Both the position numbers and the translations under genes were made by a program. Shown piece by piece: positions 5,145-29,166 of a stretch of 32,172 nt of DNA. Location of the stretch: contig NZ_MQTZ01000062.1 in assembly GCF_001939115.1 (NCBI RefSeq), positions 1-32,172 on the forward strand, written 5' to 3'. The notes beneath the pieces were generated by a model. That model searched no databases and was not told where the DNA came from. It worked only from the letters and a program-made list of their open reading frames with translations. Origin of the DNA: Leptolyngbya sp. 'hensonii' (lineage in GTDB: Bacteria; Cyanobacteriota; Cyanobacteriia; GCF-001939115). Numbering within the stretch: the stretch's first letter is position 1; each line of letters begins with the position of its first letter.

Positions 5145-5430
5145 GAAGGTACAGATAGATTTTAATGACTCAATCTATTAGGACACGAAGCTTTAGGAAT
5201 TTCTTTGGATTGCCAAGACTCTGCAATGTAAATAAGCTGTGACAACTCCAGGATAAAATTAGGCAATTTAAAGAATTTCTTTCTAGGTTGCTGGATTTTT
5301 CAGGAGAATAATCTGCTTAAGCTGGTTTGATGCGCTGGATCCTAAAAAATTATTTAAATATCTACTCCGAATACTTGCCTTCTTCGTGACCTGTTCTAAC
5401 GTGGTAATGAACTGAGCTAAAAAACGAGCC

Positions 5431-6522
5431 GTGAACATTCCAAGTTCTATCTACACCATGCTGGCCGGTATTGCGCTTACCCTCATCAGCATCTGGCTTG
5501 GCCAAAATCATGGCCTTCTGCCGATCGCCGCTTCTGAGGAATCGCATCTGATTGACGGACTGTTCAATGCCATGATGACGATTTCAGTTGGCCTGTTCCT
5601 GATTGTTCAGGGCGTAATTATCTATGCGGCCATCCGATTTCGCCGTCGTCAGGGGGATGAAACAGACGGGGCTGCCTTTGAGGGAAATATCCCGCTGGAA
5701 ATTCTCTGGACGGCCATTCCAGCAGTGATTGTCTTGGGGATCTCGGTCTACAGCTTTGATATCTACAATCAGATTGGTGGCTTGAATCCCATGGGCCATT
5801 CTGTTGCCCACGCTCAATCCAGCAAGCAAGGAACCCATTTCTCCGGTGCTGCGATCGCGGCGACTCTGGCGGATGCTACAGCAGGTGAGACGGTCACAAC
5901 CAGTGCACCCCCGATCGGACAGGCTGTTGAGGCTGAGCCTGGTGCTAATCAGGTCTCCCCAGTTCAATCCACCAGTACTCCTAACCAGACCAGTACGGAA
6001 ACTCAGAAGACTGCGTCAGAGTTTGTGGTAAATGTAACTGGCTTGCAGTATGCCTGGATCTTTACCTACCCGGATAGCAACGTGACCACGGGCGAATTGC
6101 ACTTGCCCATAGGTCGAACGATCAAGCTCAATATTTCGGCTAATGATGTGATTCACGCTTTCTGGGTGCCGGAGTTTCGCCTGAAACAGGATGCTATTCC
6201 GGGGCAGACCACAGAGCTTCAGTTTACGCCTGACCGGATTGGTCAGTATCCTGTGATTTGTGCCGAACTGTGTGGGGCTTATCACGGGATTATGAAGACG
6301 ATAGCGATCGTGGAAACCCCGCAGGAGTTTGAGGCTTGGATTGCCAGTCAGCAGATCGCCAGTCAACCTGAAGGGCTGCAGGGTGCGATCGCAGCCGCAA
6401 CCCGGTCTAACTCACCCGCTGAGTTCCTGGCTCCCTTCACCCAGGCCATGGGGATTGATGCAGATACGTTAGAACAAATTCCGGCTTCGCTCAACCACCA
6501 CCACCTTCATGCTGATTTATGA
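5431..6522 (+). CDS. ctaC: Cytochrome c oxidase subunit II
   Basis: A 363-residue subunit that takes electrons from the soluble donor at the binuclear CuA centre. Two transmembrane helices (about 10-26 and 46-68) are followed by the periplasm/lumen-facing cupredoxin domain. CuA ligands are His242, Cys277, Glu279, Cys281, His285 and Met288 (CAELCGAYHGIM). The GTG start gives MNIPSSIYTML, the form I know from cyanobacterial CtaC; no in-frame ATG precedes it. Residues about 118-196, between the IYNQIGG end of the membrane region and the CuA domain, are a Ser/Thr/Ala/Gln-rich, low-complexity linker, much longer than in mitochondrial or proteobacterial subunit II. The stop overlaps the ctaD start (ATGA), so translation is coupled. 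Confidence 0.96.
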   Translation: MNIPSSIYTMLAGIALTLISIWLGQNHGLLPIAASEESHLIDGLFNAMMTISVGLFLIVQGVIIYAAIRFRRRQGDETDGAAFEGNIPLEILWTAIPAVIVLGISVYSFDIYNQIGGLNPMGHSVAHAQSSKQGTHFSGAAIAATLADATAGETVTTSAPPIGQAVEAEPGANQVSPVQSTSTPNQTSTETQKTASEFVVNVTGLQYAWIFTYPDSNVTTGELHLPIGRTIKLNISANDVIHAFWVPEFRLKQDAIPGQTTELQFTPDRIGQYPVICAELCGAYHGIMKTIAIVETPQEFEAWIASQQIASQPEGLQGAIAAATRSNSPAEFLAPFTQAMGIDADTLEQIPASLNHHHLHADL

Positions 6523-19436: not shown

Positions 19437-19797
19437 GTTGACCTTTCCACCCAAAATGCCCATGGTCAAGATAAGACCCAGCGAAGTGGAAAGAGTGACT
19501 GATTCCCCCCAGGGTAGGGGATGGCATCCGGAAGGCAGAATTCAGGGTTTCTGTGAGCTGCTTGATTCTCTCTTTCCACTGATGTCTGTGGGCTCCTGCC
19601 TCCTGATCTCAGTCTTCTAAATTCCCGCCTGGCATGGCTATCCCGGTTTAGACTAGCTGTTGTAGGGATCAACAAACAAGACTCTGCTATCCAGACAAAA
19701 AATCGATCCCAATCAATTTCATAAGAAAAAATTATTCACAACTCCCAGGATGTTTGTTACAAATTAGATATTAAGAAATGTTGCGGACACCAACTTC
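19437..19797. other. Intergenic region without a recognised gene
   Basis: 361 bp between the cyclase gene and the DUF2993 gene. Its plus-strand 60-codon frame has no ribosome-binding site and no family resemblance. The right half (from about 19670) turns AT-rich, as expected for a promoter region of the next gene. I see no strong hairpin with a T run, so the cyclase terminator was not identified. Confidence 0.5.
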
Positions 19798-23048: not shown

Positions 23049-23121
23049 GGGGAATTAGCTCAGTTGGTAGAGCGCTGCGATCGCACCGCAGAGGTCAGGG
23101 ATTCGAGTTCCCTATTCTCCA
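23049..23121 (+). tRNA. trnA-CGC: tRNA-Ala (anticodon CGC)
   Basis: A full cloverleaf can be drawn: acceptor GGGGAAT/ATTCTCC with the G3-U70 pair that is the alanine identity element; D arm GCTC/GAGC; anticodon stem CTGCG/CGCAG with loop ATCGCAC (anticodon CGC at 23082-23084, reading GCG); variable loop AGGTC; T arm AGGGA/TCCCT with loop TTCGAGT; discriminator A73. CCA is not encoded. A TAAAAT sequence (23033-23038) is suitably placed as a -10 box. A HIP1 octamer GCGATCGC (23077-23084) lies in the anticodon arm. An integrase gene follows 145 bp downstream in the same direction, so the 3' end is a likely integration site. Confidence 0.96.
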
Positions 23122-23266: not shown

Positions 23267-24370
23267 GTGGATATTACCGGGAAAATCGCTCAGGCTAACG
23301 GTCGGCTCAAGGCTGGCAACCTGGGGGTGCAAATTCAGCAAATTGGCGATCGCCTCTACCTGCGGGCAACCCTACCCCCAAAACCTGGTAACTCTAACCC
23401 TCGCCCTCACCAGCAGCGGATCAGCCTGGGGGTGAGGGCAAACCCGGCTGGTCTGAAGCAGGCCGAAGCTGAAGCCAGGAAAGTCGGTGCCTTGCTGGCC
23501 TGTCGTGAATTTGACTGGGCACCCTATTTGAATCTGGTTGAGGACTCGCCTCAGAACTGTGGAGAGTTGATTGAGGGGCTACGCCAGAATTACAGGGCCA
23601 GTGAAACAACCTGGCAGGGAGACTATCTTAAGATTTTCAAGCTCTTACCCCAGGAAAAACCTCTAACCCAGGAGCTGGTAGAACGGACTATCCAAAGCTT
23701 GACTCCCGATAACCCCAACAGCAGGACACGGGAGAGAGCCGCCATTGCCCTGGGGCGACTGTGCAGGTTTGCGGGGCTGGAGTATGACCCGGCTGCCCTG
23801 GCGGGCAAATATTCCCCGTCGCTGGTGGAGCCGCGTGATTTGCCCACTGATGAGGACATTGTTAAATCCTGGAAAAGCCTGGAAAATCTGAGTTGGGCAT
23901 GGTTTTATGGCATGGTTGCCACCTATGGGCTACGGCCCCATGAATGCTTCCACATCAAAGAGTATGAATGGCCCATCATCAGGATTGACAAGCCAACCAA
24001 GACAGGGGAAAGAGCCATCTGGCCGTTTTACCCTGAATGGGTAGAACAATTCCACCTGCAGGAAGTGCTGATACCACCCATCAAATTGGACAGAAGCAAT
24101 GAGGCGATCGGTAGGGCCTGCACTCATTACTTCTGGAAGAAACTTCCCTTTAACCTCTATTCACTTCGCCATCGATGGGCAGTGAGGACCCTGGAATTTG
24201 GCTTGGACATTTCACTCTCAGCCCAACAAATGGGTCATAGCGTAGCCACTCATAGCCGGATCTATCATCGGTGGATTGGGAAAGATGTCCATCAGAGGGC
24301 TTTTGAAGCATTGATCGCTAACCCCAACAGGCCAATTCCCCCAACGGCTCATCTTCTGTCGGGGGATTGA
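23267..24370 (+). CDS. int: Tyrosine recombinase/integrase
   Basis: A 367-residue site-specific recombinase. Residues about 15-80 look like an arm-DNA-binding domain, 95-175 the core-binding helices, and 190-345 the catalytic domain. Catalytic residues are Arg223 (YGLRPHE), Lys245 (PTKTGERA), Arg301 (YSLRHRW), His324 (QQMGHS) and nucleophile Tyr333 (SRIYHRW). The His that usually stands three residues before the second Arg is Tyr298. The GTG start at 23267 is preceded by AGGCAA. It should integrate the element at tRNA-Ala. Its last 22 bp overlap, tail to tail, the convergent Xis-like gene. Confidence 0.92.
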   Translation: MDITGKIAQANGRLKAGNLGVQIQQIGDRLYLRATLPPKPGNSNPRPHQQRISLGVRANPAGLKQAEAEARKVGALLACREFDWAPYLNLVEDSPQNCGELIEGLRQNYRASETTWQGDYLKIFKLLPQEKPLTQELVERTIQSLTPDNPNSRTRERAAIALGRLCRFAGLEYDPAALAGKYSPSLVEPRDLPTDEDIVKSWKSLENLSWAWFYGMVATYGLRPHECFHIKEYEWPIIRIDKPTKTGERAIWPFYPEWVEQFHLQEVLIPPIKLDRSNEAIGRACTHYFWKKLPFNLYSLRHRWAVRTLEFGLDISLSAQQMGHSVATHSRIYHRWIGKDVHQRAFEALIANPNRPIPPTAHLLSGD

Positions 24371-24573: not shown

Positions 24574-24970
24574 GATCATCCCCTCCGATCGCTAGAAATA
24601 ACTGTCCTTCTCTCTCTTGCTTCAGCCGTCGTTTGGTTGCCATTGCGGCCAGGTCATAGCGGCAATGGCATGGAGCACACAATGCCCTGAGATTTTCGGG
24701 CCTGCAATCTTGGGGAATGTGGTTCAGGTGGGCAACGGTGAGAACAAATCGGCCAAACTTGGGAACCTGATGTAGCCCAAATTCCTCATTTTCCTCTGTC
24801 TCAAATAGGTCAGGAGACTTATCCCAAACCCGATCAATCAGCTCTCCATCTGACTCACCTGGTCTGCGACAATCCCGACCGCACTGCTGGCACTTCCAGC
24901 CAGCCGCTTCCTTGATCGCTAGGGCGATCGCTTCCCAGTTTTCCGGGTAGAGCCGTCTATCCATGGGCAT
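24560..24970 (-). CDS. HNH endonuclease
   Basis: A 136-residue protein with a zinc-binding HNH fold: first Cys pair WKCQQCGRDC (about 26-35), the HNH core TVAHLNHIPQDCRPENLRALC (about 78-98, with the catalytic His pair and Asn), and the second Cys pair CAPCHCRYD. The likely start is the ATG at 24970, with GGAGG 8 nt upstream; GTG at 24979 and ATG at 24964 are alternatives. It overlaps the ATPase stop and the Xis-like start by 14 bp each, so the three genes are translationally coupled. A role in DNA packaging, defence or replication of the element cannot be told from the sequence. Confidence 0.85.
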   Translation of the reverse strand: MPMDRRLYPENWEAIALAIKEAAGWKCQQCGRDCRRPGESDGELIDRVWDKSPDLFETEENEEFGLHQVPKFGRFVLTVAHLNHIPQDCRPENLRALCAPCHCRYDLAAMATKRRLKQEREGQLFLAIGGDDHAQA

Positions 24971-26888
24971 TGTCACCACCTCCCTGCTTCAAAACCTGTA
25001 CGTCATTTATGGCAAACACGCTATTTCTACCGGTCTGCTGATTTCGGACCTTCACCCGTTTCCGGTCTCGACTGAGGGAGATGATCAGGCTGTCTCCGGT
25101 CAATTCATGGAAGAGAGCATCTGGAAGCTGATTCAAAGGAATTTGTGGAAGCTCTTTGAGGGATGGCCGCAACTCCTTCCAGGGCAACTTGTCAGAGCCG
25201 CTCCTAATCCAGCTCCCACCCCCACAAATGGTCACCAGGTCACCGACACCAGGGGGGTGATTTTGGGATGGATCACCTTTTTTTTGACTCTGGGTAAGGG
25301 TTTGACCCAAAAGGTGATCCGCCTCCTGTGTCGGATCACCTTCTTTTTTGGGGGGTGGATCACCTTTTTTTTGACTCTGGGTAAGGGTTTGACCCAAAAG
25401 GTGATCCGTGATCTCTCTTATTCCAGAAAGTTTTTTTTCATTAGCACTCTCACCGGGAGAGTGCCAATTATTATTTTGTTTAAAAAAGTGCGGATCACCT
25501 GGATCACCTTTTTTAAAAACCTCTAAAACTCTCTCTGAGTCTTCTTTTAAAGGGTGATCCAAAAGGTGATCCGATGTATAGAGTGGATCACCTTTTTTAG
25601 GGACGAAGTATAGATAAGCCCGTTGATTCTTTGCAGTTTTAGTGACCTTTCGTTGAATCAAACCTTTGCTCCATAACTCACTCAGGAGTTTTCTGGCTTT
25701 CCCCCTGGAGATATTGAGGAACTCTGACACCTCGATCGCGGCATAGGCTGTCCCAATGCGATCGCCCTCCGATAGCCAGAGCTGAATTTTCTTCTCTTGG
25801 GTCAGATCCTGTTCCTGCTCTCCCCCTTCCTCACCCAAATAGGTAAAGCTGAGGTCTTCCTCATGGAACTTGAAGTTATAGCGACCTGGGGGGCGACCCA
25901 GACGCATCTTTTGCACCCTGAGAACTCTCTCCTCTGGAGAATTGCCAACTGCCATGGCCCACACCTCAGACACGCTGTTATGGATAGCCCTGGTCCCTCT
26001 GGCATTCCCGCTGGCGTTGGAGTGGTGAATGATGATGACGGTGGTTCCCGTCCGGTTGGCCAGGTTGGTGAGCTGTAGGACGGGCCTTGCATACTCGGTA
26101 TCGTTCTCCGAGAAGATGGAATTACGGTTGATGGCGGTCAGGCTATCGATCACCAGCAGCTCTGGCTGATCTCGTTTGATTGTGGCCTCCAATGGAGCCA
26201 TGGCTTCAATCTGCCAGTCTTCCAAGATTCCCAGGTTTGGGTGTTCACCGATGCCACGCACATCCAGCCGCTCTCCGAGGATGACGCCCGGTTCGTCTAC
26301 CTGCACCATCAACACCCCCCCCTGCTGTACCTGGTAGCCCTGCCAGGGCTGACCAGTGAGGACGCTCTCTACAATTTGGTAGGTAAATAGGCTTTTCCCC
26401 ACCCCGCCGTCGGCGTGCAGGAGCAGTACAGACCCCTTGGGAATCCAGCCATGGATCAGCCAGTTTACACCAGCGCTATACTTTTCCTTCAGCTCCTTCG
26501 GCGTCAGCGGCATGACGGGGGCCTGCTTGGCTAGGGCCTTGTTGTAGGCATCCATCAGTTGCCTGGGGGTGCGATGAAATTTTCGGGCCAGGGCCTGAAT
26601 CTTCCATTCCCTCAACCCGGGGTCAGAGATGGCTTCCAGGGCTTCCACCTGTCGGACCACACTGTTGAACTCTACCTGGTCAAGGTCCAGCCCCAGCGTA
26701 GTGGCAGCGACCCGCTCTGCCTCTTGCTTCACCAGGTCAAAGCCAACCCCATAGGTTTTGGCGATCTGGCCCAGACGGAAGGAGGAAAAGAGGGGATTTT
26801 TGAGTACCTCGATCAGCTCTGCTTCCAGGCGGTTGTCTGCTTCCCGCTGCAGCCAGTCGAGTTTTTCATCTGCAATTTTGTCATTCAT
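24957..26888 (-). CDS. RepA-like hexameric ATPase/helicase with repeat-rich linker
   Basis: A 643-residue protein. Residues 1-130 are helical and lack a recognised family. Residues 140-350 are a RecA-type P-loop domain of the RepA/DnaB-like group: Walker A ADGGVGKS (159-166), Walker B LLVIDS (244-249), the His-containing strand VIIIHHS (284-290) and an NARGTRAI motif. Residues about 365-415 form a winged helix (EVSEFLNISRGKARKLLSELWSKGLIQRK). Residues 430-545 are a low-complexity linker of KKGDP and DHLLGQTLTQSQ repeats. A C-terminal SH3-like module follows (GVGDLVTICGGGS ... VKVRNQQTGRNSVFAINDV). The start at 26888 has GGAAA in front; an in-frame ATG at 26939 has none and would read through a terminator hairpin. 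Replication initiation or helicase loading for the element is the likely role. Confidence 0.85.
   Translation of the reverse strand: MNDKIADEKLDWLQREADNRLEAELIEVLKNPLFSSFRLGQIAKTYGVGFDLVKQEAERVAATTLGLDLDQVEFNSVVRQVEALEAISDPGLREWKIQALARKFHRTPRQLMDAYNKALAKQAPVMPLTPKELKEKYSAGVNWLIHGWIPKGSVLLLHADGGVGKSLFTYQIVESVLTGQPWQGYQVQQGGVLMVQVDEPGVILGERLDVRGIGEHPNLGILEDWQIEAMAPLEATIKRDQPELLVIDSLTAINRNSIFSENDTEYARPVLQLTNLANRTGTTVIIIHHSNASGNARGTRAIHNSVSEVWAMAVGNSPEERVLRVQKMRLGRPPGRYNFKFHEEDLSFTYLGEEGGEQEQDLTQEKKIQLWLSEGDRIGTAYAAIEVSEFLNISRGKARKLLSELWSKGLIQRKVTKTAKNQRAYLYFVPKKGDPLYTSDHLLDHPLKEDSERVLEVFKKGDPGDPHFFKQNNNWHSPGESANEKKLSGIREITDHLLGQTLTQSQKKGDPPPKKEGDPTQEADHLLGQTLTQSQKKGDPSQNHPPGVGDLVTICGGGSWIRSGSDKLPWKELRPSLKELPQIPLNQLPDALFHELTGDSLIISLSRDRKRVKVRNQQTGRNSVFAINDVQVLKQGGGDNAHG
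25269..25592. repeat. Cluster of ten GGATCACC/GGTGATCC palindromic half-sites, with a 53-bp direct repeat
   Basis: GGATCACC occurs at 25270, 25333, 25357, 25492, 25501 and 25585, and its complement GGTGATCC at 25313, 25400, 25553 and 25565. Most are followed by T runs or preceded by A runs. The segment 25269-25321 is repeated exactly at 25356-25408; each copy is a hairpin with the half-sites as its arms. All lie in the linker of the ATPase gene and keep its frame: read on the minus strand, one orientation gives KGDP and the other DHL. Confidence 0.92.
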
Positions 26889-26900
26889 AGCATTTCCATG

Positions 26901-26934
26901 AAAAAAAAAAGAGCCGTGCGATCGTGCAGGGCTC
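26901..26934 (-). terminator. Intrinsic terminator/attenuator directly before the ATPase gene
   Basis: On the minus strand a GAGCC/GGCTC stem (26911-26934), extended by TGC/GCA past one mismatch, is followed at once by ten T's (26901-26910). The ATPase ATG lies only 12 nt further on. No room remains for a promoter between the terminator and the gene, so the ATPase message must read through it, which suggests attenuation or antitermination. Confidence 0.75.
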
Positions 26935-26959
26935 CACATCTTGGAAGAAAACAGTCATA

Positions 26960-27291: not shown

Positions 27292-27548
27292 CATTTGGAT
27301 TCCCCGACTGCAAACTCGCACAGCCAGAGACAGATCACCTTTTTGACTTCTGGTTCCCGGTGTTTGCGCTCCCGGAGTGGGTAGCGAGACAGGAAGTGCT
27401 CCAAATAGCTCTCTGTGCTGAGCATTAGCCCCAGAGCATCTGGGACAGAGAGATTGAATTCTGTGGCCCATTTGTCGTCAGCCCGATAGCCCAGGAAGGC
27501 TTTCAGAGAGCGCAGGTAGGACTTGATTTTGTACTCAGGGAGGTTCAT
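27291..27548 (-). CDS. Hypothetical protein of the element
   Basis: An 85-residue soluble protein, mostly helical by composition (YKIKSYLRSLKAFLGYRADDKWATEF), with no motif that I recognise. The start overlaps the previous stop (ATGA) and has GAGG 6 nt upstream, so it is a real, coupled gene. It is the last gene of the three-gene unit starting at 28116 and stops inside the terminator. Confidence 0.7.
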   Translation of the reverse strand: MNLPEYKIKSYLRSLKAFLGYRADDKWATEFNLSVPDALGLMLSTESYLEHFLSRYPLRERKHREPEVKKVICLWLCEFAVGESK

Positions 27549-28632: not shown

Positions 28633-28715
28633 CTGCACAATAGAACCAGGGGAGTGACCCTATCACCCCCCCGGTCATGCCCACAGTTACCTTCACTAAC
28701 CGGAGCACCCTCATT

Positions 28716-28928
28716 ATGACCAAGATGAAAGCCTTTACCGTCGCGATCCATCGGGAAGAGGATCAGTATGTGGCTGAATGTCTCGAAGTCGGTACAGTAG
28801 ACCAGGGCGAAACTATAGAACAGGCCCTGGAGAATCTGAAAGAAGCTACCCGGCTCTACTTGGAAGCAACGAGCCAGACAGACTTTACCCCTCGGTTTGT
28901 GACCAGCATTGAGGTGGAATGTGCCTAA
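28716..28928 (+). CDS. hicB: HicB-family antitoxin
   Basis: A 70-residue protein with the partial RNase H-like fold of HicB: FTVAIHREEDQYVAECLEVGTVDQGETIEQAL is the family signature, followed by the ENLKEATRLYLEA helix. It should neutralise the HicA mRNA interferase encoded downstream. An earlier in-frame ATG (28677) lacks a ribosome-binding site, while the ATG at 28716 has GGAG 10 nt in front. It is a short form without a C-terminal HTH/RHH domain, so autoregulation may need another protein. It overlaps hicA by 8 bp (antitoxin first). Confidence 0.9.
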   Translation: MTKMKAFTVAIHREEDQYVAECLEVGTVDQGETIEQALENLKEATRLYLEATSQTDFTPRFVTSIEVECA

Positions 28929-29166
28929 GCTACCTCGGATTTCTGGTTCTGAAGCTGTGAAAGCACTGGGCCGGATGGGGTTCTATTTAGACCGTCAAAC
29001 TGGGAGCCACGCTGTGCTAAAGAAGCCTCTGGTCAATGAATCAGAGGAGCCATGTGGGGAAGTTGTTTGTGTCGTTCCCTTGCATCGGGAGCTAAAAACC
29101 GGAACTCTAGCCGGAGTGCTCAAACAGGCCCAAGTCAACCCCGAGGAATTTATCTCGAATCTCTAA
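28921..29166 (+). CDS. hicA: HicA-family toxin (mRNA interferase)
   Basis: An 81-residue dsRBD-like toxin that cleaves mRNA. The catalytic His30 lies in TGSHAVLKK; the block VVCVVPLHRELKTGTLAGVLKQAQV matches the conserved P(L/M)H ... GTL ... IL(K/R)QA end of HicA. GTG at 28921 is the likely start (GAGG 6 nt upstream, 8-bp overlap with hicB). The insertion PLVNESEEPCGE between the His strand and the next is longer than in short HicA proteins. With hicB it forms a stabilisation module for the element. Confidence 0.9.
   Translation: MPKLPRISGSEAVKALGRMGFYLDRQTGSHAVLKKPLVNESEEPCGEVVCVVPLHRELKTGTLAGVLKQAQVNPEEFISNL

Follow-up and report, generated by a model that had tools for sequence, protein, structure and literature searches.

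A gene-internal array of short repeats as a candidate replication origin in a cyanobacterial ATPase–winged-helix initiator family

A putative initiator gene and its repeat array

The window that we analysed, a stretch of 32,172 nucleotides of the Leptolyngbya sp. 'hensonii' contig NZ_MQTZ01000062.1, carries on its minus strand a putative replication initiator/helicase gene (24957–26939), which was identified from its open reading frame and translation, a Pfam AAA_25 match, an alignment, an AlphaFold model and a structural match to PDB 1nlf. The conserved start of this gene is more likely at 26888 (MNDKIADE) than at 26939. From its N-terminus, the encoded protein consists of a helical part, a RecA/RepA-like ATPase, a winged helix (wH), a disordered linker whose coding segment holds the array described below, and a small C-terminal domain (CTD). 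Pfam returned AAA_25 with an E-value of 1.4e-29, followed by a weak HTH/wH match. The RecA-fold AAA_25 domain (residues 158–309; 26013–26468, minus strand), supported by both the Pfam and the fold match, contains the Walker motif GGVGKS, and its fold resembles RSF1010 RepA (PDB 1nlf, TMt 0.67) and DnaB. Judged by RecA fold and Walker motif, the protein is a putative hexameric helicase of the RepA/DnaB type. The wH DNA-binding domain (residues 382–446; 25602–25796, minus strand) covaries with the repeated word, and the CTD (residues 564–652; 24984–25250, minus strand) is conserved, with some relatives that do not have it still carrying arrays.

The initiator gene is adjoined by a tyrosine-recombinase-like integrase gene (23267–24370, plus strand; weak Pfam Phage_integrase match), beside which lies a tRNA-Ala(CGC) gene (23049–23121, plus strand), a possible integration site, whose anticodon arm is spanned by the cyanobacterial HIP1 octamer GCGATCGC. 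Since it sits beside both integrase and tRNA-Ala, the initiator gene is probably part of an integrated element, whose excision and replication would be putative only; a search for a duplicated tRNA end or att site in the 40.6-kb contig found none. The integrase neighbourhood recurs, as read from sequence, in two homologues (loci L107 and L108). Further along the window (28677–29166, plus strand), two small overlapping open reading frames resemble a HicB/HicA-type toxin-antitoxin pair.

Inside the 660-codon ATPase gene, we found ten exact GGATCACC/GGTGATCC words at 25270–25592, with the consensus AAAAGGTGATCC, all within the linker-coding segment. Six copies lie on the plus strand (starting at 25270, 25333, 25357, 25492, 25501 and 25585) and four on the minus strand (25313, 25400, 25553 and 25565), compared with a chance level for the whole window of 1.68 copies on average and four at most in 100 shuffles; outside the array, the whole window has one further copy. 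The array includes an exact 53-bp direct repeat on the plus strand (25269–25321, identical to 25356–25408), its copies spaced 87 bp apart and each unit holding two inverted words with starts 43 bp apart, as well as a tandem word pair with 9-bp spacing (25492–25508, plus strand) and another with 12-bp spacing (25553–25572, minus strand). Word count and shuffles thus confirm a first-pass annotation of this DNA, which had described ten copies and an exact 53-bp direct repeat within a rep-like gene. In the AlphaFold model of a 643-residue protein, which contains a RecA-type ATPase and a wH, residues 434–543 have a pLDDT below 50; this segment matches the array, which therefore sits in a predicted disordered linker.

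The six copies in one orientation all fall in a single codon register, and the four inverse copies in a second one. The same annotation had noted this preserved register, which holds for each orientation, and had given the encoded peptides as KGDP or DHL only, which proved too narrow: the constant parts are GDP (KGDP in four of six copies, also EGDP and PGDP) and, in the inverse orientation, DH (DHL in three of four, DHP once). No DnaA boxes were found near the array, with one TTATTCACA in the window, at 19732. Intrinsic terminators were considered as well and discarded, because terminator-like sites, despite strong hairpins, are no commoner than in shuffles.

An isolated eleventh exact match, to GATCACCTTTTT, occurs at 27333–27344 (plus strand), about 445 bp upstream of the conserved start of the initiator; its continuation, GACTTCTGG, resembles the array unit, and the match may be an operator, a decayed copy or a chance occurrence.

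Arrays across homologous genes

From cyanobacterial genomes, from plasmids and from two named contigs, we assembled 74 open reading frames with an ATPase–wH core, removed near-duplicates to leave 67 genes, and searched about 800 bp 3' of the wH for at least five copies of one 8-mer. Of these AAA_25 + wH genes, 37 of 67 carry a gene-specific word in 5–17 copies directly 3' of the wH codons, while synonymous-codon shuffles of each gene gave means of 2–4 and maxima of 3–6 copies; about 45% of the homologues are without an array by this 8-mer test. No gene had an equivalent array in the ATPase region (0/67) or in the 860 bp that precede the ATPase core (0/66). In the k-mer analysis, the words of different homologues included AAGTGATC, AAGCGATC, CTACTGATCGaC, cggTTGATCG, CAACTGATC, GGGTGATCGG, cAAcTGTGCTTC and TATGGTGAA, with GTTGGAGAAA, TGTCAGAT and CTTGTCCAA in further genes.

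Nearly all arrays have copies on both strands, and 30 of the 33 coding arrays mix codon registers, so that the single register per strand in the window gene is an exception, which could have arisen by in-frame duplication, as of the 53-bp repeat with its copies 87 bp apart. In 28 of the 33 coding arrays, GC content is below that of the ATPase core. In three relatives (L053, L056 and L014), the gene ends just past the wH and the array lies in non-coding DNA, filling the gap between initiator and integrase in the wider loci of two of them (L107 and L108, which extend L053 and L056); in a fourth (L076), the array starts at the extreme end of the open reading frame and lies almost wholly beyond the stop codon. 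One and the same word can occupy either setting: AAGTGATC lies within the reading frame of L052 but in non-coding DNA in L053 and L056, and AACCTAAC is translated in L099, a Nostoc plasmid gene, and stands in four copies past the stop codon of an Aulosira plasmid gene (L097). The use of both strands, the mixed registers and the persistence past the stop codon make the array a DNA-level, not a peptide-level, feature. The linker is predicted to be disordered, and in some relatives the array-encoded part is missing from the protein altogether.

Several relatives are linked to replication by their own composition or setting. A DnaB N-terminal domain (PF00772, E about 1e-25) is fused to three of them (L013, L064 and L066), another (L016) is fused to a primase-like part, and some reside on circular plasmids; on pANACY.03, the family member is the only recognisable replication-type protein in an incomplete PLSDB gene table. 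GC skew of the circular plasmids AP018321.1 and NC_019773.1 did not point to the array as an origin: significant skew is absent from one plasmid, and the detrended cumulative maximum of the other, of unusual sign, lies about 4 kb from the array.

In one homologue (L017), a second repeat, TTACCCAA, occurs in 9–11 copies about 122–609 bp past the stop codon, the in-gene word being TAGTAAACA.

Word spacing and covariation with the winged helix

Across the 39 arrays examined for spacing, same-strand neighbours 11–12 bp apart were seen 86 times, against 18.9 expected and a maximum of 33 in 500 simulations, and those 8–9 bp apart 51 times against 22 expected. Within coding arrays, the frame-breaking spacings of 8 and 11 bp are as prominent as those of 9 and 12 bp. 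Opposite-strand neighbours form a weaker cluster near 43–45 bp, as in the 53-bp unit of the window, in a tally made without a null model. A spacing near the helical repeat, as in iteron origins, is therefore found family-wide, the window itself contributing one 12-bp and one 9-bp pair.

Among 18 close relatives, word similarity correlated with wH identity (r 0.51). With the ATPase controlled for, the partial correlation between word and wH was 0.36 (P 0.001, n=18), while that between word and ATPase given the wH was 0.08 and not significant. The subset with a CTD and the full set of domains (n=11) gave the same partial r for the wH given the ATPase (0.36, P 0.005), and in it neither the N-terminus (0.06) nor the CTD (0.04) correlated significantly with the word. 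Over all 39 genes, the wH partial was 0.05 and not significant, with an ATPase partial of 0.37, and the 21 more distant members had no significant word–wH covariation. These tests use small numbers, and the partial test handles shared ancestry only in part. L011 and L012 have ATPases that are 98% identical and yet different words, as do L045 and L048 at 91% identity. Substitution counts by domain in L011/L012 show that the wH is not uniquely fast, the N-terminus and CTD diverging too, and we therefore base the covariation on the correlation tests. In the close clade, GATC is the core of most words, and the variation lies in the flank; conceivably, the core is contacted by the recognition helix and the flank by the wing.

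A candidate origin read by its own initiator

We consider it most probable, with a likelihood of roughly three in four, that the array is an iteron array serving as an origin, placed in the disordered linker of the initiator gene and read by the initiator's own wH; that it is a DNA site of some kind bound by the wH is more probable still. The repeats would be multiple binding sites for the wH of the protein encoded by the same gene, and the array would most likely act as the origin, or the origin core, from which an integrative or plasmid-like element replicates. In this RepA/DnaB-type helicase, the wH would recognise both inverted word pairs and tandem pairs separated by roughly one turn of the helix; once bound, it would set the helicase at an AT-richer stretch, which would then open, and wH and word would change together. 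The initiator gene could hold its own origin because what this stretch encodes is a disordered linker that tolerates differences in length. Origin-type iterons within the rep gene were one of two readings put forward by the first-pass annotation; they are supported by words that differ between homologues while keeping their position, lie on both strands and mix codon frames, and further by the 11–12 bp spacing, the arrays outside coding sequence and the wH covariation. Of the two readings, the iteron one is the better.

The principal alternative, to which we assign a clearly smaller though not negligible weight, is that the wH binds the array for another purpose: copy control or incompatibility, operator function, or a partition-type role in which the initiator is titrated or silenced. 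Iteron clusters of known plasmids also act in copy control, the same appearance of binding sites and wH covariation would be expected, and the single isolated word upstream at 27333 would suit such a role. Against an operator, the arrays lie within or downstream of the gene, a poor location for an operator, and none of 66 genes has one in the 860 bp ahead of the ATPase core; the filling of the initiator–integrase gap in two relatives speaks against a non-origin site in general.

It is improbable that the array is a functionless product of local recombination or slippage, such as an expansion in a tolerant linker. The linker is indeed disordered and length-variable, and the identity of the 53-bp copies makes that duplication probably recent, but a position conserved across a diverse family, the 11–12 bp spacing, the use of both orientations, the wH covariation and the persistence of the array outside the reading frame speak against it. 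Even less credible is a protein-level repeat in which the GDP/DHL peptide was selected in the linker and the DNA repetition is a by-product: the one register per orientation in the window gene would suggest it, but the inverse orientation of the same word encodes an unrelated peptide, the linker is predicted to be disordered, and the homologues, with their mixed registers and arrays past the stop codon, largely refute it. The other reading of the first-pass annotation, a Rickettsia-type palindromic mobile repeat spread in frame within the gene, can practically be dismissed, for although the units are short and partly palindromic, with an exact 53-bp duplication and the frame kept, the word at this position differs from relative to relative, and GGATCACCTTTTTT (the 14-bp, T-tailed form, with at most one mismatch) occurs in the 5.9-Mb genome only in the array, plus one imperfect match elsewhere, so that dispersal is missing.

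Known initiators offer partial parallels to the origin reading. Phage lambda O is not an ATPase, and its gene holds its own origin, ori-lambda, in a tolerant linker, as proposed here. Midway through the O gene are the origin iterons and an AT-rich tract, and the additional iterons of Stx phages lengthen O by 13 residues (PMC7466680). Lambda has four iterons and Stx phages six, nearly the same between phages, whereas in the cyanobacterial family the word changes between homologues; unlike in lambda, the cyanobacterial words also occur in both orientations, and the array may follow the stop codon. The rep gene of pSK41, of the RepA_N type, has four centrally located Rep boxes encoding a linker that is dispensable as protein sequence, and the DNA-binding domain is within Rep itself (PMC5703833). 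As in this class of intragenic iterons, the window has a single short sequence repeated several times within the coding sequence of the initiator, but the RepA_N binding domain is N-terminal, whereas in the cyanobacterial initiator the wH follows a RecA-type ATPase and the array follows the wH, and neither Pfam nor NCBIfam matched a RepA_N domain (PF06970) in the window initiator. RSF1010 RepA shares the ATPase fold, but the RSF1010 origin is recognised by a separate protein, RepC, while the window initiator has its wH fused to the ATPase.

Replication of cyanobacterial plasmids and integrative elements is little characterised, and the published CyRepA and CyRepX initiators come from one strain. 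CyRepA1/CyRepA2 and CyRepX are Synechocystis plasmid initiators with published replication activity, and the term 'iteron' is absent from the three papers describing them (PMC9978351, PMC10079941, PMC10899382). Neither slr7037 (CyRepA1) nor slr6031 (CyRepX1) has a comparable array, and no CyRepA1 family model is among the NCBIfam/Pfam matches of the window initiator.

Because lambda O and pSK41 Rep carry origin iterons inside the initiator gene, the principle is already known. As far as the open PMC text that we searched goes, what is new is a cyanobacterial ATPase–wH family with such arrays, the exchange of word and wH in step from one relative to another, and the indifference of the array to coding or non-coding sequence. 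We lean, with less assurance than for the origin itself, towards a large cyanobacterial initiator family that is self-addressed, each gene carrying the word that its wH reads, with word and wH switching together. If true, sequence alone would yield dozens of initiator–site pairs. These would be a natural training set from which to learn a wH recognition code, the close clade with its GATC-containing core and variable flank in particular, and would include many plasmid replicons orthogonal to one another, ready-made and compatible for cyanobacterial engineering. The array reading predicts origins for a whole further family from sequence alone and explains why each differs, and some ten sites changing in concert with a single protein domain would be clear protein–DNA co-evolution within one gene.

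Related features occur beyond the ATPase–wH genes. Viral contigs scanned with the initiator protein and with an alignment yielded no relative, and the phage relatives S-CBS4 and Pam2 have no array. A different, larger helicase-like protein of 1128 residues, encoded on the minus strand of L096 (genome G061), has the same small CTD at its end and its own ten-copy GATCACCA array just ahead of that domain, from which an array–CTD module seems to be common to different initiator types. Two short open frames, L095 (G033:C103:138133-138330) and G058:C325:3443-3718, match the CTD of the initiator only. On Trichormus variabilis plasmid B (L116), 18-bp tandem repeats lie at 2300–2496 inside a 'MarR' gene adjoining dnaB, and on Nostoc pTCL26-01_G (L117), an array with a 66-bp period lies downstream of dnaB, at 5349–5724.
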